In this document: positions 31,195 to 58,775 of the stretch, piece after piece
How the letters are laid out: each line of letters begins with the position of its first letter
Numbering within the stretch: position 1 is the stretch's first letter
NCBI RefSeq assembly: GCF_000320405.1
Contig: NZ_KB291618.1
Span: 1-64,000, forward strand
Length of the DNA: 64,000 nt
Reading direction: 5' to 3'
Source: Clostridium celatum DSM 1785
GTDB lineage: Bacteria > Bacillota > Clostridia > Clostridiales > Clostridiaceae
Notes under the pieces: model-generated
The model's database searches: none
The model's input: the letters and a program-made list of their open reading frames with translations, nothing else
What the model was told of the DNA's origin: nothing
Made by a program: the position numbers and the translations under genes

Positions 31195-32430
31195 TTAAAG
31201 TGCCTCTTCTACAGTTTTAACTACATCTTTATACTTAATCTTTTCACCATTTCTTAATAGATACACACCTTCATCATTACCAACTTGCTCAATATATCTA
31301 CTAACAATAACATCAGCATACTTTTCATCAAGCTCAATAGTGTAGCAAATTCTATCTGTTTGCTCACAAGCAATAAGCGTTGAACCACTTCCTCCGAATG
31401 GGTCAAGTACAATAGAGTTTATTAAACTTGAATTAGTAATTGGATAAGCTACTAATGCTATTGGCTTCATTGTTGGATGATATTTAGATTTTGTGGGCCT
31501 ATCAAAATTCCAAGTAGTTCTTTGCTTTCTATCTGCATAGAATTTATGTCCTGCTGTAGGCTTCCACCCTACAAGTACTGGCTCATGATTATATTGATAA
31601 TCACATCTCCCTAATACCGGTGAATTCTTTACCCATATACAAGTTTGGTGACAAAAGAAACCTGCATCTTTAAAGGCAGTTCTAAAGTTAACAGTTTCCT
31701 TATCAGCATGAAACACATAGATTGAACCTCCATCTGTAAGACTTTCATACATTCCTTTATAGGCAGCTAACAAAAATTCATAAAACTTTTTATCATCCAT
31801 ATCATCATTTTGAATCTTCCCTGCTGTACCCTCATAAGCAACATTGTAAGGAGGATCTGTTACCGTTAGATTAGCTTTCTTCCCATCCATTAACCTTTCA
31901 TAAGTTTCAAGCTTTGTACTATCTCCACAAATTAATCTATGTCTTCCTAGTAACCAAATATCTCCGCTTTGTGTTACTGGATTTTCTGGTGGAACCTCAT
32001 CAAAGTTATCTTCCTTTACACCTTTAGGATGTAACTCATTAAATAATGCATCAATCTCTGGTGGTTCAAATCCTGTAAAAGATGTATCATAATCTAAGTC
32101 TTGTAAATCCTTAATTAAATCAGCAAGTAATTCTTTATTCCACTCACCTGTAATTTTATTAAGAGCTATATTTAAAGCCTTTTCTTTAGTCTTATCGACT
32201 TCAATAACTACACAATCTATTTCCTCATAACCTAATGTTTTTAAAACTGATACTCTTTGATGCCCTCCAATTACAGTTAAATCTTTATTTACTATAACAG
32301 GGTCCACATATCCAAACTCATTAATGCTATTTTTTATTTTTTCAAATTCAGCATCACCAGGTTTTAATTTTTTTCTTGGATTATAATCAGCTGGTACTAA
32401 TGAATCTATTTTTAACTTTTTAAACTCCAT
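31195..32430 (-). CDS. ParB-domain / DNA methyltransferase fusion
   Basis: A 411-residue protein. Residues 1-95 are a ParB/Srx-type nuclease-like domain (LVPADYNPRKKLKPG, TVIGGHQRVSVLKTLGYEEI). The rest is a beta-class N6-adenine/N4-cytosine methyltransferase with catalytic motif IV TDPPYNVAYEG before the SAM-binding motif I VLDPFGGSGSTL. Such fusions are common near phage terminases, where methylation may protect phage DNA from host restriction or mark packaging. The ATG lies 11 bases inside the upstream HTH/zinc gene, next to GGAGGG. Recognition sequence unknown. Confidence 0.9.
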   Translation of the reverse strand: MEFKKLKIDSLVPADYNPRKKLKPGDAEFEKIKNSINEFGYVDPVIVNKDLTVIGGHQRVSVLKTLGYEEIDCVVIEVDKTKEKALNIALNKITGEWNKELLADLIKDLQDLDYDTSFTGFEPPEIDALFNELHPKGVKEDNFDEVPPENPVTQSGDIWLLGRHRLICGDSTKLETYERLMDGKKANLTVTDPPYNVAYEGTAGKIQNDDMDDKKFYEFLLAAYKGMYESLTDGGSIYVFHADKETVNFRTAFKDAGFFCHQTCIWVKNSPVLGRCDYQYNHEPVLVGWKPTAGHKFYADRKQRTTWNFDRPTKSKYHPTMKPIALVAYPITNSSLINSIVLDPFGGSGSTLIACEQTDRICYTIELDEKYADVIVSRYIEQVGNDEGVYLLRNGEKIKYKDVVKTVEEAL

Positions 32431-33030: not shown

Positions 33031-33141
33031 TAGATATCCCCCTACCCAACCTTAACCCCAACCATTAAATCAATTTCTTTATCTCTATTATAATAATATC
33101 AGAAATTCATACTCTACTTCTATCAACTTTACTCTACTCTT

Positions 33142-33495
33142 TTAATATTCATACTCTTTGTATCTATCTTCAGTCATAGTTTTCTTATCATGACACTTCT
33201 TACAAAGAGCTTGCCAGTTACTTTCATCCCAGAACAACTTCTTATCTCCTCTATGAGGTTTAATATGATCAACTACAGTAGCTTTAACTAATCTACCTTC
33301 CTCTTTACATCTAACACATAAAGGATTAACTTTTAAGAATATATTCCTAGCAGTTCTCCACTTACTATCATAACCACGTTCAGTAGCAGTAGCTCTTTCT
33401 TTTACCCTAAAATCTTTATGTTCATCACAATAATTATCTTCTGTTAACTTAGCACACCCCAAATATTTACACGGTTTCAATGGTTTCTTGGGCAT
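33142..33495 (-). CDS. Phage HNH endonuclease
   Basis: A 117-residue HNH nuclease. CVRCKEEGRLVKATVVDHIK contains the first zinc Cys pair and the catalytic DH, followed by NWQALCKKCHDKKT with the conserved Asn, second Cys pair and His. In cos phages such nucleases work with terminase to cut genome ends. ATG at 33495 follows GAGGTGATTTTA. It lies next to the candidate cos island. Confidence 0.88.
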   Translation of the reverse strand: MPKKPLKPCKYLGCAKLTEDNYCDEHKDFRVKERATATERGYDSKWRTARNIFLKVNPLCVRCKEEGRLVKATVVDHIKPHRGDKKLFWDESNWQALCKKCHDKKTMTEDRYKEYEY

Positions 33496-33635
33496 TAAAA
33501 TCACCTCATTAAAGAAAAAAGCCACTACAACTTTTGCTGTAATGACTCTTAATTTATTTTCTCTATTATAATAATATCAGAAGTTTGTACTCTACTTCTA
33601 TCAACTTTACTCTACTTTTTAAGTTATTAATAAAT

Positions 33636-33702
33636 TTTAACCTTGGATTGCTCCAAGGTCTGGCCTGCATTGTTACGCTTCTTTGATAGGCTTTGCAGGA
33701 TC
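33636..33702 (-). ncRNA. Structured RNA copy A, downstream of abiF (abiF-RNA-like), with terminator
   Basis: On the minus strand the element reads GATCC-TGCA-AAGCCTAT...GCGTAACA-A-TGCA-GGCC, with a 6-bp stem CCTGCA/TGCAGG (33694-33699 and 33664-33669). A second hairpin CCTTGGA/TCCAAGG (33641-33647 and 33652-33658) then leads to TTAAAATTTATT and may end the transcript. It shares GATCC, AAGCCTAT, GCGTAACA and GGCC with copy B, but the stem bases differ in a compensatory way. A -10-like TATACT lies at 33707-33712. I recall a published abiF RNA motif beside Abi_2 genes; exact identity needs a covariance search. Confidence 0.65.
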
Positions 33703-33743
33703 TATTAGTATATAGTATGTTCTTAATTTAATTTTAAATACAC

Positions 33744-34625
33744 TTATTTTAAAATTTCTCTCCACGTTTCTGGAAATCCATAATGCTTTAAATTAACAAA
33801 TGAGTATTTACTAATTAATGTTTCTAACCTATTAATAAAGTTCTCTTTAACATTAATATCATCTATTAATTTATTCATGATATAAATATACGCAAATACT
33901 TGTTTTGTATTTTTATTTAAATCTAAAGAATTATTTTTAAATAAATTCTTATCTTTTTTTGACAGCTTAGGTGCAAATGTTATGTACCTGTTATATAATC
34001 TTCCTCTATGAGCACATATATTACGAAGTATAACAAAACCTTGCAACCAGTTTTCTATATAATTATATGGTATAGATGCATAATGATCTTTACAAATTTC
34101 TTCTTTAATTTCAGCATGTAAATTTTTAAATCCTCTTGATAAACAACCAAAGGACATTAACTCTACTACTACCCAACATGGAAACTCTCCATCATATTTT
34201 TCATTATGATGTTTAACGAATATTTCATTCTTTTCATTTTCTTCTATAAGTTGAGTTATGTTTTTCATGAATTTTTCATATCTCCACTCATCATCAAAGC
34301 TTTCTTTATCTAAATATCCTAACGGCCCATATTCTTTTGAATGATAATATCCAAAATGAGTTCTAAACTCCACCTCAATATATTCTAGTAAATATAATAA
34401 TGCAACTCTTAACTCTGCATCAAAATTATATATTTCCATTACTTGTTCTAACTTTACATTATTATAAAAAACATTATCTCTCCTTAATGTTAATGTATAC
34501 CCACTTAATCTGTAATAATTAACATGAGATAAAACTCTAGAAGCATAGTCATTATCTTTAATTACCATACCTCGCTCTTTCAAAATTTCTATTTGTTCTT
34601 CTATACTTTTAAAAGGTTTTCCCAT
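33744..34625 (-). CDS. AbiF/AbiD-family abortive infection protein (Abi_2, HEPN)
   Basis: A 293-residue Abi_2 (PF07751-type) protein. The N-terminus KPFKSIEEQIEILKERGM and YASRVLSHVNYYRLSGYTL are hallmarks. The predicted HEPN RNase motif R-x4-H is at Arg201-His206 (RNICAHRGRLYN), with supporting residues in ELRVALLYLLEYIEVEFR. Family members were described as abortive infection proteins against phages. AGGAGAAATTT precedes the ATG. It lies alone between the HNH and late-regulator genes and is bracketed by two copies of a structured RNA on the same strand; the upstream copy has its own promoter and a terminator-like tail directly before this ribosome binding site. RNA cleavage restrained by the RNA is an attractive inference. 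Confidence 0.88.
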   Translation of the reverse strand: MGKPFKSIEEQIEILKERGMVIKDNDYASRVLSHVNYYRLSGYTLTLRRDNVFYNNVKLEQVMEIYNFDAELRVALLYLLEYIEVEFRTHFGYYHSKEYGPLGYLDKESFDDEWRYEKFMKNITQLIEENEKNEIFVKHHNEKYDGEFPCWVVVELMSFGCLSRGFKNLHAEIKEEICKDHYASIPYNYIENWLQGFVILRNICAHRGRLYNRYITFAPKLSKKDKNLFKNNSLDLNKNTKQVFAYIYIMNKLIDDINVKENFINRLETLISKYSFVNLKHYGFPETWREILK

Positions 34626-34633
34626 AAATTTCT

Positions 34634-34705
34634 CCTAAAACAAAAGGCCCACCATGTTACGCATGTGATATAAAAAAATATCACATAGGCTTGGTGGGAT
34701 CGATT
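34634..34705 (-). ncRNA. Structured RNA copy B, upstream of abiF (abiF-RNA-like)
   Basis: On the minus strand: GATCC-CACC-AAGCCTAT, an inner hairpin ATGTGATAT/ATATCACAT (34678-34686 and 34663-34671), GCGTAACA, then GGTGGGCC. The outer stem CCCACCA/TGGTGGG (34692-34698 and 34648-34654) is followed by CCTTTTGTTTT, which looks like an intrinsic terminator, then AGGAG of abiF. Promoter -35/-10 elements place the transcription start at about 34705, right at the 5' end of the element. This is the layout expected for a small RNA with read-through into the toxin gene. Confidence 0.7.
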
Positions 34706-34711
34706 GATTAA

Positions 34712-34740
34712 ATTATATCACAAGAATTTTATCTTCTCAA
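34712..34740 (-). promoter_or_regulatory. Promoter of RNA copy B and abiF
   Basis: TTGAGA (34735-34740), a 17-bp spacer ending in an extended TG, and TATAAT (34712-34717) on the minus strand. Predicted start about seven bases downstream, at the beginning of the RNA element. Confidence 0.75.
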
Positions 34741-34748
34741 TAATTAAT

Positions 34749-35177
34749 TTACTTTTTTATTAAAATTTTATCATTTTGAACAATTATATTTTCTAAAGCT
34801 CTATCATGCACCTTATATGCATTTTGAATACTATATCCCATATCAACAGCTATTTGCTCCCAAGTTTTAAAACAAAGGTATCTCAACTCCAACAATGTTT
34901 GCTGTTCTGGATTATTAATCTTTTTTATTATAGACATTATTTCTTTCTTCAAATCTACAAGTACATCTATATCAGCATTAATTTCATTCTCTAATTCCAT
35001 CATCTTTACTATTATTCCTTCCATAGAATGAACATTACGACTTCCACTTGGAGGTGTATCACTTAATGTAGATGTTGCTTTAGTTGCTAATTCTCTTAAA
35101 GACACTATTTGTTCAAGCTTACTATTTATTCTTTGATCTATTCTATAAGCTTGAGCTAAGTACTCTTTAGTTGTCAT
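34749..35177 (-). CDS. Late transcription regulator, sigma-like (DUF1492/ArpU type)
   Basis: A 142-residue protein with a helical N-terminal half (AYRIDQRINSKLEQIVSLRE) and a C-terminal sigma region 4-like HTH (LELRYLCFKTWEQIAVDMGY, then NAYKVHDRALENI). Such regulators switch on late genes in many Gram-positive phages. It lies at the boundary between the replication block and the packaging/structural genes, as expected. Its ATG overlaps the preceding stop (ATGA). GGAGG is present upstream. Confidence 0.8.
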   Translation of the reverse strand: MTTKEYLAQAYRIDQRINSKLEQIVSLRELATKATSTLSDTPPSGSRNVHSMEGIIVKMMELENEINADIDVLVDLKKEIMSIIKKINNPEQQTLLELRYLCFKTWEQIAVDMGYSIQNAYKVHDRALENIIVQNDKILIKK

Positions 35178-35430: not shown

Positions 35431-35787
35431 TTAGCATACTTTTTTATTTAAATTAATACTTACAGAAAGTATTTCATTAAGTTTTGTACTGTCTTCTTCT
35501 TTAAGCTGACCTATAACATTTAATATTTGCCCCTTACATATTGTTAAAACCTGCTCTGCTAATATTGTGCTATCATATTTTAAGCAACTATAATCTTTTT
35601 TATATAATTCATGATGTGTAGGAAGTTCCTTTTTATGTTTTCCTGTTATAGGAACTACTATTGTTGTGGTAGAAAACTTATTACCTACATCATTTTGAAT
35701 AACCACTGCTGGCCTTCTTCCACTTTGAACACATCCTTGGTTTTGGCCAAAGTCCACCATTATAATACTATCTCTATAAATCTCCAT
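35431..35787 (-). CDS. PemK/MazF-family toxin-like protein without antitoxin
   Basis: A 118-residue MazF/PemK fold protein: IYRDSIIMVDFGQNQGCVQS, the conserved GRRPAVVIQND, TTIVVPITGKHKKELPTH with the usual Thr-bearing strand, and LAEQVLTICKGQIL. Family members are ribonucleases that cleave mRNA at short sites. No MazE-like gene precedes it: the upstream neighbour is the SNF2 helicase, with which it overlaps by 14 bases. So either the antitoxin lies elsewhere, or this phage-borne protein has lost toxicity or been repurposed. Confidence 0.85.
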   Translation of the reverse strand: MEIYRDSIIMVDFGQNQGCVQSGRRPAVVIQNDVGNKFSTTTIVVPITGKHKKELPTHHELYKKDYSCLKYDSTILAEQVLTICKGQILNVIGQLKEEDSTKLNEILSVSINLNKKVC

Positions 35788-37133
35788 CTTTTATACCCCC
35801 GATTCTTGCTTTAACAGCATTAATTAAATTTTCTTGTCCACATTGTTTTCTTTGAAGAGCTTTCATTACTTCTTCATCTATAGTTCCTTTAGAAACAATG
35901 TGATGAATAACTACTGTATCTTTCTGTCCCTGTCTCCATAGTCTTGCATTAGCTTGTTGGTAAAGCTCTAAACTCCAAGTTAGTCCAAACCATATAATTG
36001 TTGAACCTCCAGCTTGAAGATTTAACCCATGTCCTTTTGCTGCTGGATGTGCTATCGCTATTTGAATTTTTACCTTCATTCCATTTTGATATATCTTTAC
36101 TAGTTGAAATTTCTGTAACCTTAAATTTTTTAGATATTCTTTCTTTATCATGTTTATAAGCATAAAATACTAATACTGGTTTTCCATTAGCTGCCTCAAT
36201 TAAATCTTCTAAACCTTCTAACTTTTTATTATGAATTATCTTTGTTTCCTTCAGCTCATCATAAACTGCTCCATTTGCCATTTGAAGTAATTTATTAGAT
36301 AGTGCTGCTGCATTAACTGCATCTATGTCTCCATCAGCTAACGGTAAAATCATATCTTTTTCTAATCTTTTATAAAGTTTCTTTTCCTCTTCTGACATTT
36401 TCACATGAACTACATTATCTATTCTTTCTGGCATATCTAAATAATCACAAGCCTTCATACTGACACAAATATCAGCTATTCTTTTATAAATTTCTTCTTC
36501 AGCACCTTCTCTAGGTTTATAACTAAATATTACTTGAGCATTTCTTTTATCAGGAATAAAAAAGTCATTTCTATAATTACTAATAAATCTTCCTAACCTT
36601 TGCCCCATATCAATTAAGTTTATTTGACTCCATAAATCCATTAAAGTATTTGGTGCTGGAGTTCCTGTAAGCCCAACTATTCTTTTTACCTTTGGTCTAA
36701 TTTTTCTAAGAGCTTTAAACCTTTTTGAAGAAGAGGATTTAAAACTTGAAAGTTCATCAATGACTATCATGTCAAAATCAAAGTCATAATTATTACAAAG
36801 CCATTCTACATTTTCACGATTTATTATGTAGATATCAGCTTTATCAAATAGAGCCATTCTTCTTTCTTTTTCTGAACCTAAAACTTTTGAAATTTTAAGA
36901 CCTTTAAGATGATCCCATTTTTCACACTCTTTACTCCAAGTATCTTGAGCTACTCTTAATGGAGCTATAACTAATACTTTACTTATTTCAAAATAATCAA
37001 ATAACAAACTCCATAAACTTGTTAAAGTTATTACTGTTTTTCCAAGTCCCATATCTAAAAGTAAGGCACATGCTGAATTATTTATAATAAAATCCTGTGC
37101 ATACTTTTGATATTCATGAGGTACATATTTCAT
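35774..37133 (-). pseudogene. SNF2-family DEAD/DEAH helicase with a single-base frameshift
   Basis: Two overlapping frames together make one phage SNF2 helicase of about 453 residues. The first part has Walker A LLDMGLGKTVITL, DELSS at motif II and VGLTGTPAPNTLMDLW. The second carries KGHGLNLQAGGSTIIWFGLT and the final RLWRQGQKDTVVIHH motif VI. The break is at a run of five T (36067-36071, A on the coding strand): removing one base gives WNEGK-IQIAIAHPAAKGHG in one frame. It may be a true mutation, a homopolymer sequencing error, or programmed slippage. ATG at 37133 is eight bases from GGAGG. It overlaps VRR-NUC upstream and the MazF-like gene downstream. Confidence 0.8.
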
Positions 37134-37395
37134 CAAGTACACCTCCAATCTTTTCTTTACTATCTATGCAATAAACTAAAAATCCTAATGATTCTAATTG
37201 TCTTTTTCTCAATATTTGAAAAGGTCTCATTTCTTTTCCTGGTGCTTTAAGTTCTACAAAAGCAAGTTTTCCATCTTTCATTAAAACTAGCCTATCTGGC
37301 ACACCTGCCATTCCTGGTGATACAAACTTAAATGCTATCCCTCCACGTTTCTTAACTTCCTTAGTTAAAGCTTTTTCAACTTCCCTTTCTCTCAT
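37114..37395 (-). CDS. VRR-NUC domain nuclease
   Basis: A 93-residue stand-alone VRR-NUC (PD-(D/E)XK) nuclease: REREVEKALTKEVKKRGG, GMAGVPDRLVL with the catalytic Asp, and FVELKAPGKEMRPFQ with the E-x-K. Similar small nucleases accompany SNF2 helicases in phage replication blocks and are thought to process branched DNA. ATG at 37395 follows AAAGGGGTATTT. Overlaps the helicase start by about 20 bases. Confidence 0.88.
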   Translation of the reverse strand: MREREVEKALTKEVKKRGGIAFKFVSPGMAGVPDRLVLMKDGKLAFVELKAPGKEMRPFQILRKRQLESLGFLVYCIDSKEKIGGVLDEICTS

Positions 37396-58420: not shown

Positions 58421-58775
58421 TGGTGGAGGCGAGGGGTATCGAACCCCTGTCCGAAAGCAGACCAGCCTGACTTTCTACGAGCGTAGTTTGTGACTAAAAT
58501 TTCGGTCCTTAGTTCGCTCACAAACAAACTCCTAATTCCCTAGCTTCATAAATACCCCTCTAGCTCAAAGCTTTGCTAGACTTCGTTCCCTACTTCAATG
58601 ACACCAGCTACCCAAGACGTAGGCATCCTGGACTGATGAGCAAGCTATATTAAGCTGCTAATGCAAAATTGTCTTCTGCGTTTATATTTAGTGCATACCT
58701 GATTATCGAGGTCACATGCTTCCCTCGGCCCGCTTATCAAACCCATCACACCCCCGTCGAAGCCAAAACGCCCCC
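58421..58775 (-). ncRNA. ssrA: tmRNA (SsrA)
   Basis: One-piece tmRNA of 355 bases. The 5' end GGGGGCG-TTTTGGCTTCGACG pairs with 3' CGCCTCC before the encoded ACCA, giving the alanine acceptor stem with a G3-U70 pair. The T arm GGTTCGATACC is present. The resume codon opens GCAGAAGACAATTTTGCATT, encoding the degradation tag AEDNFALAA before a TAA stop. It rescues stalled ribosomes with SmpB (gene not in window). Its 3' end points towards the island, as expected at a common integration site, but no duplicated 3' end was found. Confidence 0.97.

Follow-up and report, generated by a model that had tools for sequence, protein, structure and literature searches.

The window, a 64-kb stretch of DNA from Clostridium celatum DSM 1785, carries on its minus strand an abiF gene with an abiF-type RNA element in front of it (RNA1) and a second such element behind it (RNA2) (Table 1). 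RNA1 is formed by an outer stem, CCCACC/GGTGGG, an inner GC/GC stem, an extended apical hairpin and a single-stranded GTAACA. RNA2 has the stem CCTGCA/TGCAGG and the same single-stranded GTAACA, and starts 41 nt past the end of abiF. A prior sequence-only reading had proposed that three base pairs change in a compensatory way between the two copies, which is correct, and that the upstream copy begins at a TTGAGA-17-TATAAT promoter, which matches at 11 of 12 positions and has a TG before the -10 box. That reading had also placed a hairpin plus U-tract before abiF; the U-tract lies directly in front of the AGGAG as described, but the hairpin before CCTTTTGTTTT is the stem of the abiF-type RNA itself and no separate hairpin is present. 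The RNA1 stem, with this U-tract, may also serve as a terminator or attenuator. Similarly, the hairpin assigned to the downstream copy is present, but it is followed by AAAATTTATT, only a weak U-tract, and the terminator behind RNA2 in the window is weak. As predicted from sequence, the locus has the arrangement of a type III system, with RNA and toxin genes adjacent, one promoter and a terminator between them; the order of antitoxin before toxin holds for RNA1 and not for RNA2.

Table 1. Coordinates of the abiF cassette in the window
Feature	Position	Strand	Remarks
Inserted cassette, promoter-RNA1-abiF-RNA2-hairpin (approximate)	33641..34773	-	Missing from related phages
SigA-type promoter, TTGAGA-17-TATAAT, TG before -10	34712..34740	-	11/12 matches; predicted driver of RNA1 and abiF
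RNA1, upstream abiF-type RNA	34645..34701	-	R1 41.6 bits, E 3.3e-8; fold z -3.76
U-tract TTTTGTTTT	34637..34645	-	Two bases past RNA1 stem, directly before AGGAG (34632-34636, Shine-Dalgarno-like)
abiF CDS, 293 aa, Abi_2 family HEPN protein (R201, H206)	33744..34625	-	PF07751, PHROG 2158, PDB 8VZ6
RNA2, downstream abiF-type RNA	33661..33702	-	R1 28.4 bits, E 6.8e-5; Rfam RF03085 24.5 bits, sub-threshold
Terminator-like hairpin behind RNA2	33639..33660	-	Folded jointly with RNA2, z -3.47

The abiF product matched the Abi_2 domain of Pfam (PF07751) over residues 31-212 (1.8e-47), PADLOC AbiD over residues 3-293 (5.2e-97) and PHROG 2158 (5e-73), and is homologous to the PbAbiF chain of PDB 8VZ6 (phmmer 6.7e-31). 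The HEPN RxxxxH motif, whose Arg201 and His206 had been picked out beforehand, was found in the sequence RNICAH, and both residues are invariant in the protein alignments A1 (3 rows) and A2 (10 rows). On domain and motif the protein is assigned to the AbiF/Abi_2 (AbiD/F) family of HEPN RNases, and the identification of the locus as an AbiF HEPN gene with abiF-type RNAs holds on both protein homology and covariance models.

A number of other features were observed in passing. A direct repeat of approximately 82 bases (33072-33153 and 33551-33632), containing AGAGTA boxes and TATAATAGA, lies around an HNH gene; it also occurs just past the regulator gene in related phages and for this reason may be a late promoter that responds to the phrog_36 regulator. 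Upstream of the abiF cassette, at a distance of about 0.7 kb, lies a PemK/MazF-like toxin gene (35431-35787, minus strand; PF02452, 5.7e-23). At another abiF locus a pemK RNA of Rfam (L031:2806-2919, minus strand, 53.6 bits) was found on the same strand as the upstream RNA and about 0.4 kb further out. A helicase gene (phrog_62; 35774-37148, minus strand) seems on visual inspection to be broken into two frames that overlap, 35949-37148 and 35774-36163, and a single protein encoded at 31195-32430 (minus strand) combines a ParB-like domain with a DNA methyltransferase (phrog_498, phrog_620). A tmRNA gene is also present (58421-58775, minus strand) in the window; genes of this kind often serve phages as attachment sites.

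Covariance models of the abiF-locus RNAs

Other abiF loci were taken from plasmids, phages and viral contigs and from genomes belonging to the same genus, class or phylum as the window, and their flanks were read. A covariance model, R1, was trained on 26 RNAs lying upstream of abiF at these loci (including those of the relatives L013, L014 and L055), with the window and all downstream copies excluded. R1 gave two matches in the window up to E=10, the two flanking elements, and only the same two up to E=10 in the 3.55-Mb genome, in which a looser first pass had picked 130 candidates. Both minus-strand elements around abiF are therefore recovered by a model that contains no sequence of the window. 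A second model, R2, is based on alignment A6, which comprises 11 downstream copies, all of the GCGCAATAC type. A larger downstream alignment of 15 copies (A5) was dropped because it was misregistered between groups; removal of L013, L014, L161 and L033 from its 15 rows gave the 11 of A6 and R2.

The Rfam abiF model (RF03085), which had been suggested as a check on the elements, detected nothing in the window at its 37-bit gathering cut-off. With lax limits the downstream copy was scored, below that cut-off at 24.5 bits, but the upstream copy with its extended inner hairpin was not reported. Both window RNAs are relatives found via a model of abiF-locus RNAs and are not formal members of RF03085; R1 and R2 were built because Rfam lacked the sensitivity to detect such copies. 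The L014 locus, used as a nucleotide query against the phage collection, gave no match, and a regular-expression-plus-stem scan was rejected for counting, as it returned many chance stems downstream, and was kept for reading sequences only.

Distribution of the two-sided layout

R1 matched upstream of the gene at 82 of 92 abiF loci (two of them weakly, E 2.7 and 7.1), 26 of the 92 having supplied training rows. Downstream matches to R1 were found at L004, L006, L013, L014 and L161, and downstream matches to R2 at its 11 training loci, by construction, and at L101, a near-copy of L016. A downstream copy was reported by one or other model at 17 of the 92 loci, 11 of which are R2 training rows; that at L033 was seen by eye and reported by neither. 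Measured from the first base of the stop codon, the downstream stems begin 17-47 nt further on, the decayed locus L161 excepted.

In a tree of 97 non-identical AbiF proteins (which omits L161, L036, L038, L158 and 7 identical proteins) the two-copy label was confined to two groups, the window's (4 of 5 proteins) and a second clade (13 of 14). These labels were taken from the flank reading, and a search of all tree loci with R1 and R2 agreed with them except at L033. The layout is therefore present for 17 of the 19 proteins of the two clades and for none of the 74 other assessable proteins, 4 of the remaining 78 having no downstream sequence. The label required 4 changes on the tree as against a shuffle mean of 16.0, although near-copies favour this test. 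No downstream copy was found at L055 or L059 by flank reading or by the models and, since these two loci and the other 78 tree proteins (4 not assessable) do without one, the downstream copy is not essential. Upstream of the gene at L059, two different abiF RNA types, one of them of the window's type, precede a single gene. At L161 the abiF gene is decayed (L161:2001-2400), being interrupted by stops in all frames and lacking much of its length, and the RNAs flanking it keep good R1 scores of 36.7 and 29.2 bits.

The sample is biased towards the window's kind of AbiF because of the choice of loci: 42 of 80 viral abiF loci were used (3 duplicates of loci already included and 35 that were more distant or incomplete were left out), 4 phage and 6 plasmid records were sampled from 85 and 456 with a match, and two second matches and the partial or broken loci L086 and L089 were unused. 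Comparison of homologous loci for single versus double copies, as had been recommended, nevertheless shows the flanking pair to be kept in two AbiF clades. The sequence-only reading had regarded two copies around one gene inside a prophage as the unusual point. The flanking layout is indeed unusual, and conserved, but the prophage setting is not, because 288 prophages with abiF/abi_2 are known among 2,600 representative abiF-carrying genomes (PMC12373285). As far as searched, the split layout of a leader RNA and an RNA behind the gene is apparently new, the AbiF/abiF-RNA core being already known; none of the open-licence PMC papers found describes, in the text read, abiF RNAs flanking the gene or solo copies acting as inhibitors, and an earlier description is possible.

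Covariation and relatedness of the RNA copies

In the R1 alignment, which is fitted to the model, 91.0% of cells pair. Cells changed on both sides numbered 121, compared with 31.0 in shuffles and no more than 35 in slid controls, a count inflated by near-copies, whereas the number of pairs changed on both sides (8 versus 6.9 shuffled, 100/500) was not above chance. A similar result was obtained for the second-clade downstream copies: 100% of cells pair and both-side cells again exceeded shuffles (10 versus 3.2, likewise inflated by near-copies), but changed pairs (3 versus 2.1, 133/500 shuffles) and pair types (3 versus 5.1) were not above chance. The expectation of covariation across homologous loci was thus borne out at the level of cells and not at that of changed pairs. 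Within the window's clade the downstream stems read CCTGCA/TGCAGG (window), CCTGAC/GTCAGG (L014) and CCTACA/TGTAGG (L161).

The two positions in the second clade differ in their single-stranded motif, GCACACTT in 12 of 13 upstream copies and GCGCAATA in 11 of 13 downstream copies. The upstream-only model R1 did not find the second-clade downstream copies, and R2 was weak on window-type copies, scoring 15.3 bits (E 0.62) on the L161 downstream copy and about 10 bits (E about 2) on upstream ones. As the models cross-match weakly or not at all, a common origin for the whole set of downstream copies is inferred from their structure and the GCGYAAYA motif that they share.

Promoters and transcript ends at two-copy loci

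Promoters and tails were compared in 18 two-copy loci (17 plus the decayed L161), several of which are near-copies. A promoter with 10-12 of 12 matches stands before all 18 upstream copies, and a strong one before only 1 of 18 downstream copies (L033, p 0.015); a full promoter of its own for RNA2 is unsupported in the other 17. In 8 of 13 second-clade downstream copies, TATAAT or TATACT occurs exactly 13 nt before the stem, the same spacing as in the upstream copies of that clade. The 16 nt after the stem contain a mean of 8.5 T upstream versus 3.4 downstream, the upstream value being the higher in 17 of 18 loci, and inspection of the tails by eye shows a hairpin behind every downstream copy.

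Insertion of the cassette as a single unit

Relatives of the regulator gene next to the cassette (34749-35177) occur in 145 viral stretches, the best 80 of which were compared. R1 elements were present in 4 of these 80 loci, three having the window's pair and the fourth, L250, a single element that precedes a different abiF of its own on the opposite strand; in 77 of the best 80 of 145 no R1 element was found at the cassette's place in the stretch examined. In L176-L180 and L185, similarity to the window runs to the end of the regulator and within about 60 nt resumes at window positions 33640-33576. Since the flanks adjoin in these phages, the missing block contains promoter, RNA1, abiF, RNA2 and hairpin, and both RNAs and abiF in the window are one insert.

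Downstream-type RNAs without abiF

When 391 genomes of the window's class, Clostridia, were searched with R2 under strict filters and without reference to AbiF, 9 matches in 8 genomes were obtained (E <=4.5e-8). Three lie behind abiF and are R2 training loci; the other six (L252, L254, L256, L257, L259 and L260) are new, and tblastn with the study's AbiF set found no AbiF within 1.5 kb on either side of them. The matching pattern also occurred in 16 viral contigs, 8 with abiF in front, 5 without (L266, L268, L269, L270 and L273) and 3 taken as chance and rejected (L261, L262 and L267, with R2 scores of 10-14 bits). No Abi_2 match was found in any of the five whole viral records that carry solo RNAs, although these records may be fragments, or in 4 of the 6 genomes; a full abiF lies about 75 kb from the solo RNA in G287 and a partial Abi_2 on another contig in G148.

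The abiF RNA of S-CREM1 (OP535465), a lytic cyanophage, reported earlier in PMC9964418, was confirmed by Rfam at 52.2 bits within a tRNA cluster (L287:2032-2068, between tRNA-Asn and tRNA-Gly). No Abi_2 match was found in its complete genome of 177,957 bases. Solitary RNA units lacking the defence gene, as expected of Racr-like mimics, are represented by the viral records (Abi_2 in 0 of 5) and by this complete genome (0 of 1). The S-CREM1 RNA is of another subtype, scoring 21.9 bits with R1 and unmatched by R2.

The solo RNAs occupy six genomic settings that, on cross-comparison, are dissimilar outside the RNA and a tRNA-like stretch, the exception being contigs L266 and L273, which have some protein similarity. 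The L252 RNA, which has a 12/12 promoter, lies at a chromosomal site behind a gene resembling isoleucyl-tRNA synthetase by eye, the others being in prophage-like regions or viral contigs. L254, L256, L257, L259, L260, L269 and L270 share TTGATT-16-TATRCT, which was not significant by locus-wise shuffling, and L266 has no promoter-like site. At L273 the larger neighbouring ORFs are co-directional with the RNA. In the TTGATT-16-TATRCT group, the abiF carrier L277 and the solo loci L278-L282 have the RNA and stretches on both sides in common, and comparison of L277:4145-5264 with L278:2575-4155, at one prophage-like site, shows RNA1 and abiF swapped for another block with the downstream RNA kept. 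The replacing block in L278 encodes a SocA/Panacea protein with a sub-threshold MqsA match; G287 contains both versions, with abiF and with the replacement block, about 75 kb apart. Rfam matched none of the 8 solo loci searched, of 11, up to E=5, so that RNAs of this kind are easily overlooked and yet can be found by covariance model. A viral pattern search for the window's own RNA type gave 6 stretches: three window-type prophages, the L161 contig with its decayed abiF, and two without AbiF, whose standing as orphans was rejected since both were judged by eye to be chance.

The solo RNAs may be RNA mimics directed against AbiF. It is a plausible though tentative proposal that the downstream-type RNA is an autonomous mobile antitoxin gene, serving as a second antitoxin beside abiF and, when alone, as a Racr-like RNA anti-AbiF; the duller alternative is that solo RNAs are remnants of lost abiF loci. 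Were they to inhibit AbiF, they would form a new set of RNA-based counter-defences, allowing a phage to grow in, or a prophage to coexist with, hosts and rival prophages armed with AbiF. The split antitoxin of the window would then be a snapshot of a prophage arms race fought with one RNA motif, and this race would concern the lineage proposed to have yielded Cas13.

Proposed mechanism and alternatives

Two conserved RNAs, covarying between copies and held in a conserved layout, lie here with a promoter-like site and distinct tails in a block inserted as one unit, which is probably a prophage-borne RNA-protein toxin-antitoxin (abortive-infection) cassette with attenuation at RNA1 and RNA2 carried on the read-through message. 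RNA polymerase would transcribe RNA1 first from the single promoter, and the RNA1 stem and U-tract would end most transcripts, releasing free antitoxin RNA, with some read-through producing abiF mRNA. AbiF would be a dimeric HEPN RNase kept inactive by abiF-type RNAs. The read-through message would bear a second antitoxin unit, RNA2, at its 3' end, and because of this position each dose of toxin message would bring its own antitoxin. RNA2 is predicted to be transcribed, to bind AbiF and to buffer leakage past the presumed RNA1 terminator; it is perhaps also weakly self-promoted, a -10 box being present at some relatives. If the RNA supply failed, through phage takeover of transcription or loss of the cassette, AbiF would be freed and growth would stop. 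Toxicity of AbiF, RNA binding, neutralisation and read-through are known for homologues.

RNA1 might instead act mainly as a cis attenuator or AbiF-sensing leader, leaving RNA2 as the true trans-acting antitoxin. Such a division of labour would fit the restriction of the window's promoter and pre-start-codon U-tract to RNA1, the separate hairpin of RNA2, the position-specific motifs of the second clade and the occurrence of the RNA2 type alone. It is rather unlikely, as most abiF loci read have upstream copies only and the C. difficile leader RNA itself neutralises in trans (PMC12373285). Less likely again, RNA2 could be the relic of a second abiF locus, or mere 3' end or terminator of the abiF mRNA, and no antitoxin. 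The absence of a downstream copy at L055 and L059, the terminator-like hairpin that ends the RNA2 region and the retention of both RNAs beside the decayed gene of L161 would suit this explanation, but the position and structure of the downstream RNA are kept across two clades, by eye the hairpin following RNA2 is separate from it, and RNAs of the RNA2 type persist at sites with no adjoining abiF.

AbiD/F has been proposed as the ancestor of Cas13 (PMC12165695), and abiF RNAs could on this account be guides directing AbiF to target RNAs, as in the proposed Cas13 descendants. This is highly improbable: the aligned elements consist only of a hairpin whose apical loop varies and a short conserved motif in single-stranded form, with no spacer-like variable single-stranded stretch, and the published homologue is an inhibitor complex. 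The guide-RNA reading was rejected because there is no spacer. Under the preferred reading, attenuation at RNA1 with RNA2 on the read-through message, a conserved split antitoxin would alter models of AbiF dose control, since every message made by read-through would come with its own antidote; AbiF is of interest as a widespread phage-defence toxin and proposed Cas13 ancestor.

Comparison with known systems

The solo RNAs resemble the Racr RNA anti-CRISPRs (PMC10651486) and the pseudo-ToxI of PhiTE (PMC12548467) in being defence RNAs without the defence gene. Racr mimics CRISPR repeats and the PhiTE RNA mimics ToxI, both having been tested, whereas the solo abiF-type RNAs are candidate mimics. 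ToxIN, CptIN and TenpIN also have an RNA antitoxin that binds an RNase toxin and the order promoter, antitoxin, terminator, toxin, but differ in toxin structure, in their pseudoknot RNA repeats and, in the portion of PMC5086642 available, in that the antitoxin is described only before the toxin. With Rfam RF03085 the window RNAs have in common the outer stem, inner GC/GC stem and single-stranded linker; both fall below the curated cut-off, and in the upstream copy the apical hairpin is extended.

The closest parallel among characterized loci is C. difficile AbiFCd/RCd22 of prophage phi027, shown to be a type III-like toxin-antitoxin system (PMC12373285, here and below). There, toxicity, inhibition of AbiF by the RNA and read-through were demonstrated, and the mechanism that the sequence-only reading had inferred for the window, in which the RNA restrains the RNase and hairpin read-through sets the toxin level, was shown experimentally for this homologue. 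Both loci have an Abi_2 HEPN toxin, a leader abiF-type RNA, a prophage setting and an R/H catalytic pair (R202 and H207 in AbiFCd), and likewise a SigA promoter and read-through into the toxin gene, both predicted in the window. Two abiF motifs per locus are known in tandem upstream, and in AbiFCd/RCd22 both belong to a single upstream RNA with a separate terminator after it, whereas in the window the stem of the upstream RNA is itself terminator-like and the second copy is behind the gene. For PbAbiF, which is homologous to the window protein (phmmer score as above), no flanking RNA pair is described in the available parts of PMC12373285 or PMC12737573. The PbAbiF-ncRNA structure (PDB 8VZ6; Zilberzwige-Tal et al. 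2025) is a dimer with two abiF ncRNAs, one per protomer (PMC12373285, PMC12737573), and the split pair of the window would be a natural two-RNA substrate for such a dimeric AbiF complex.
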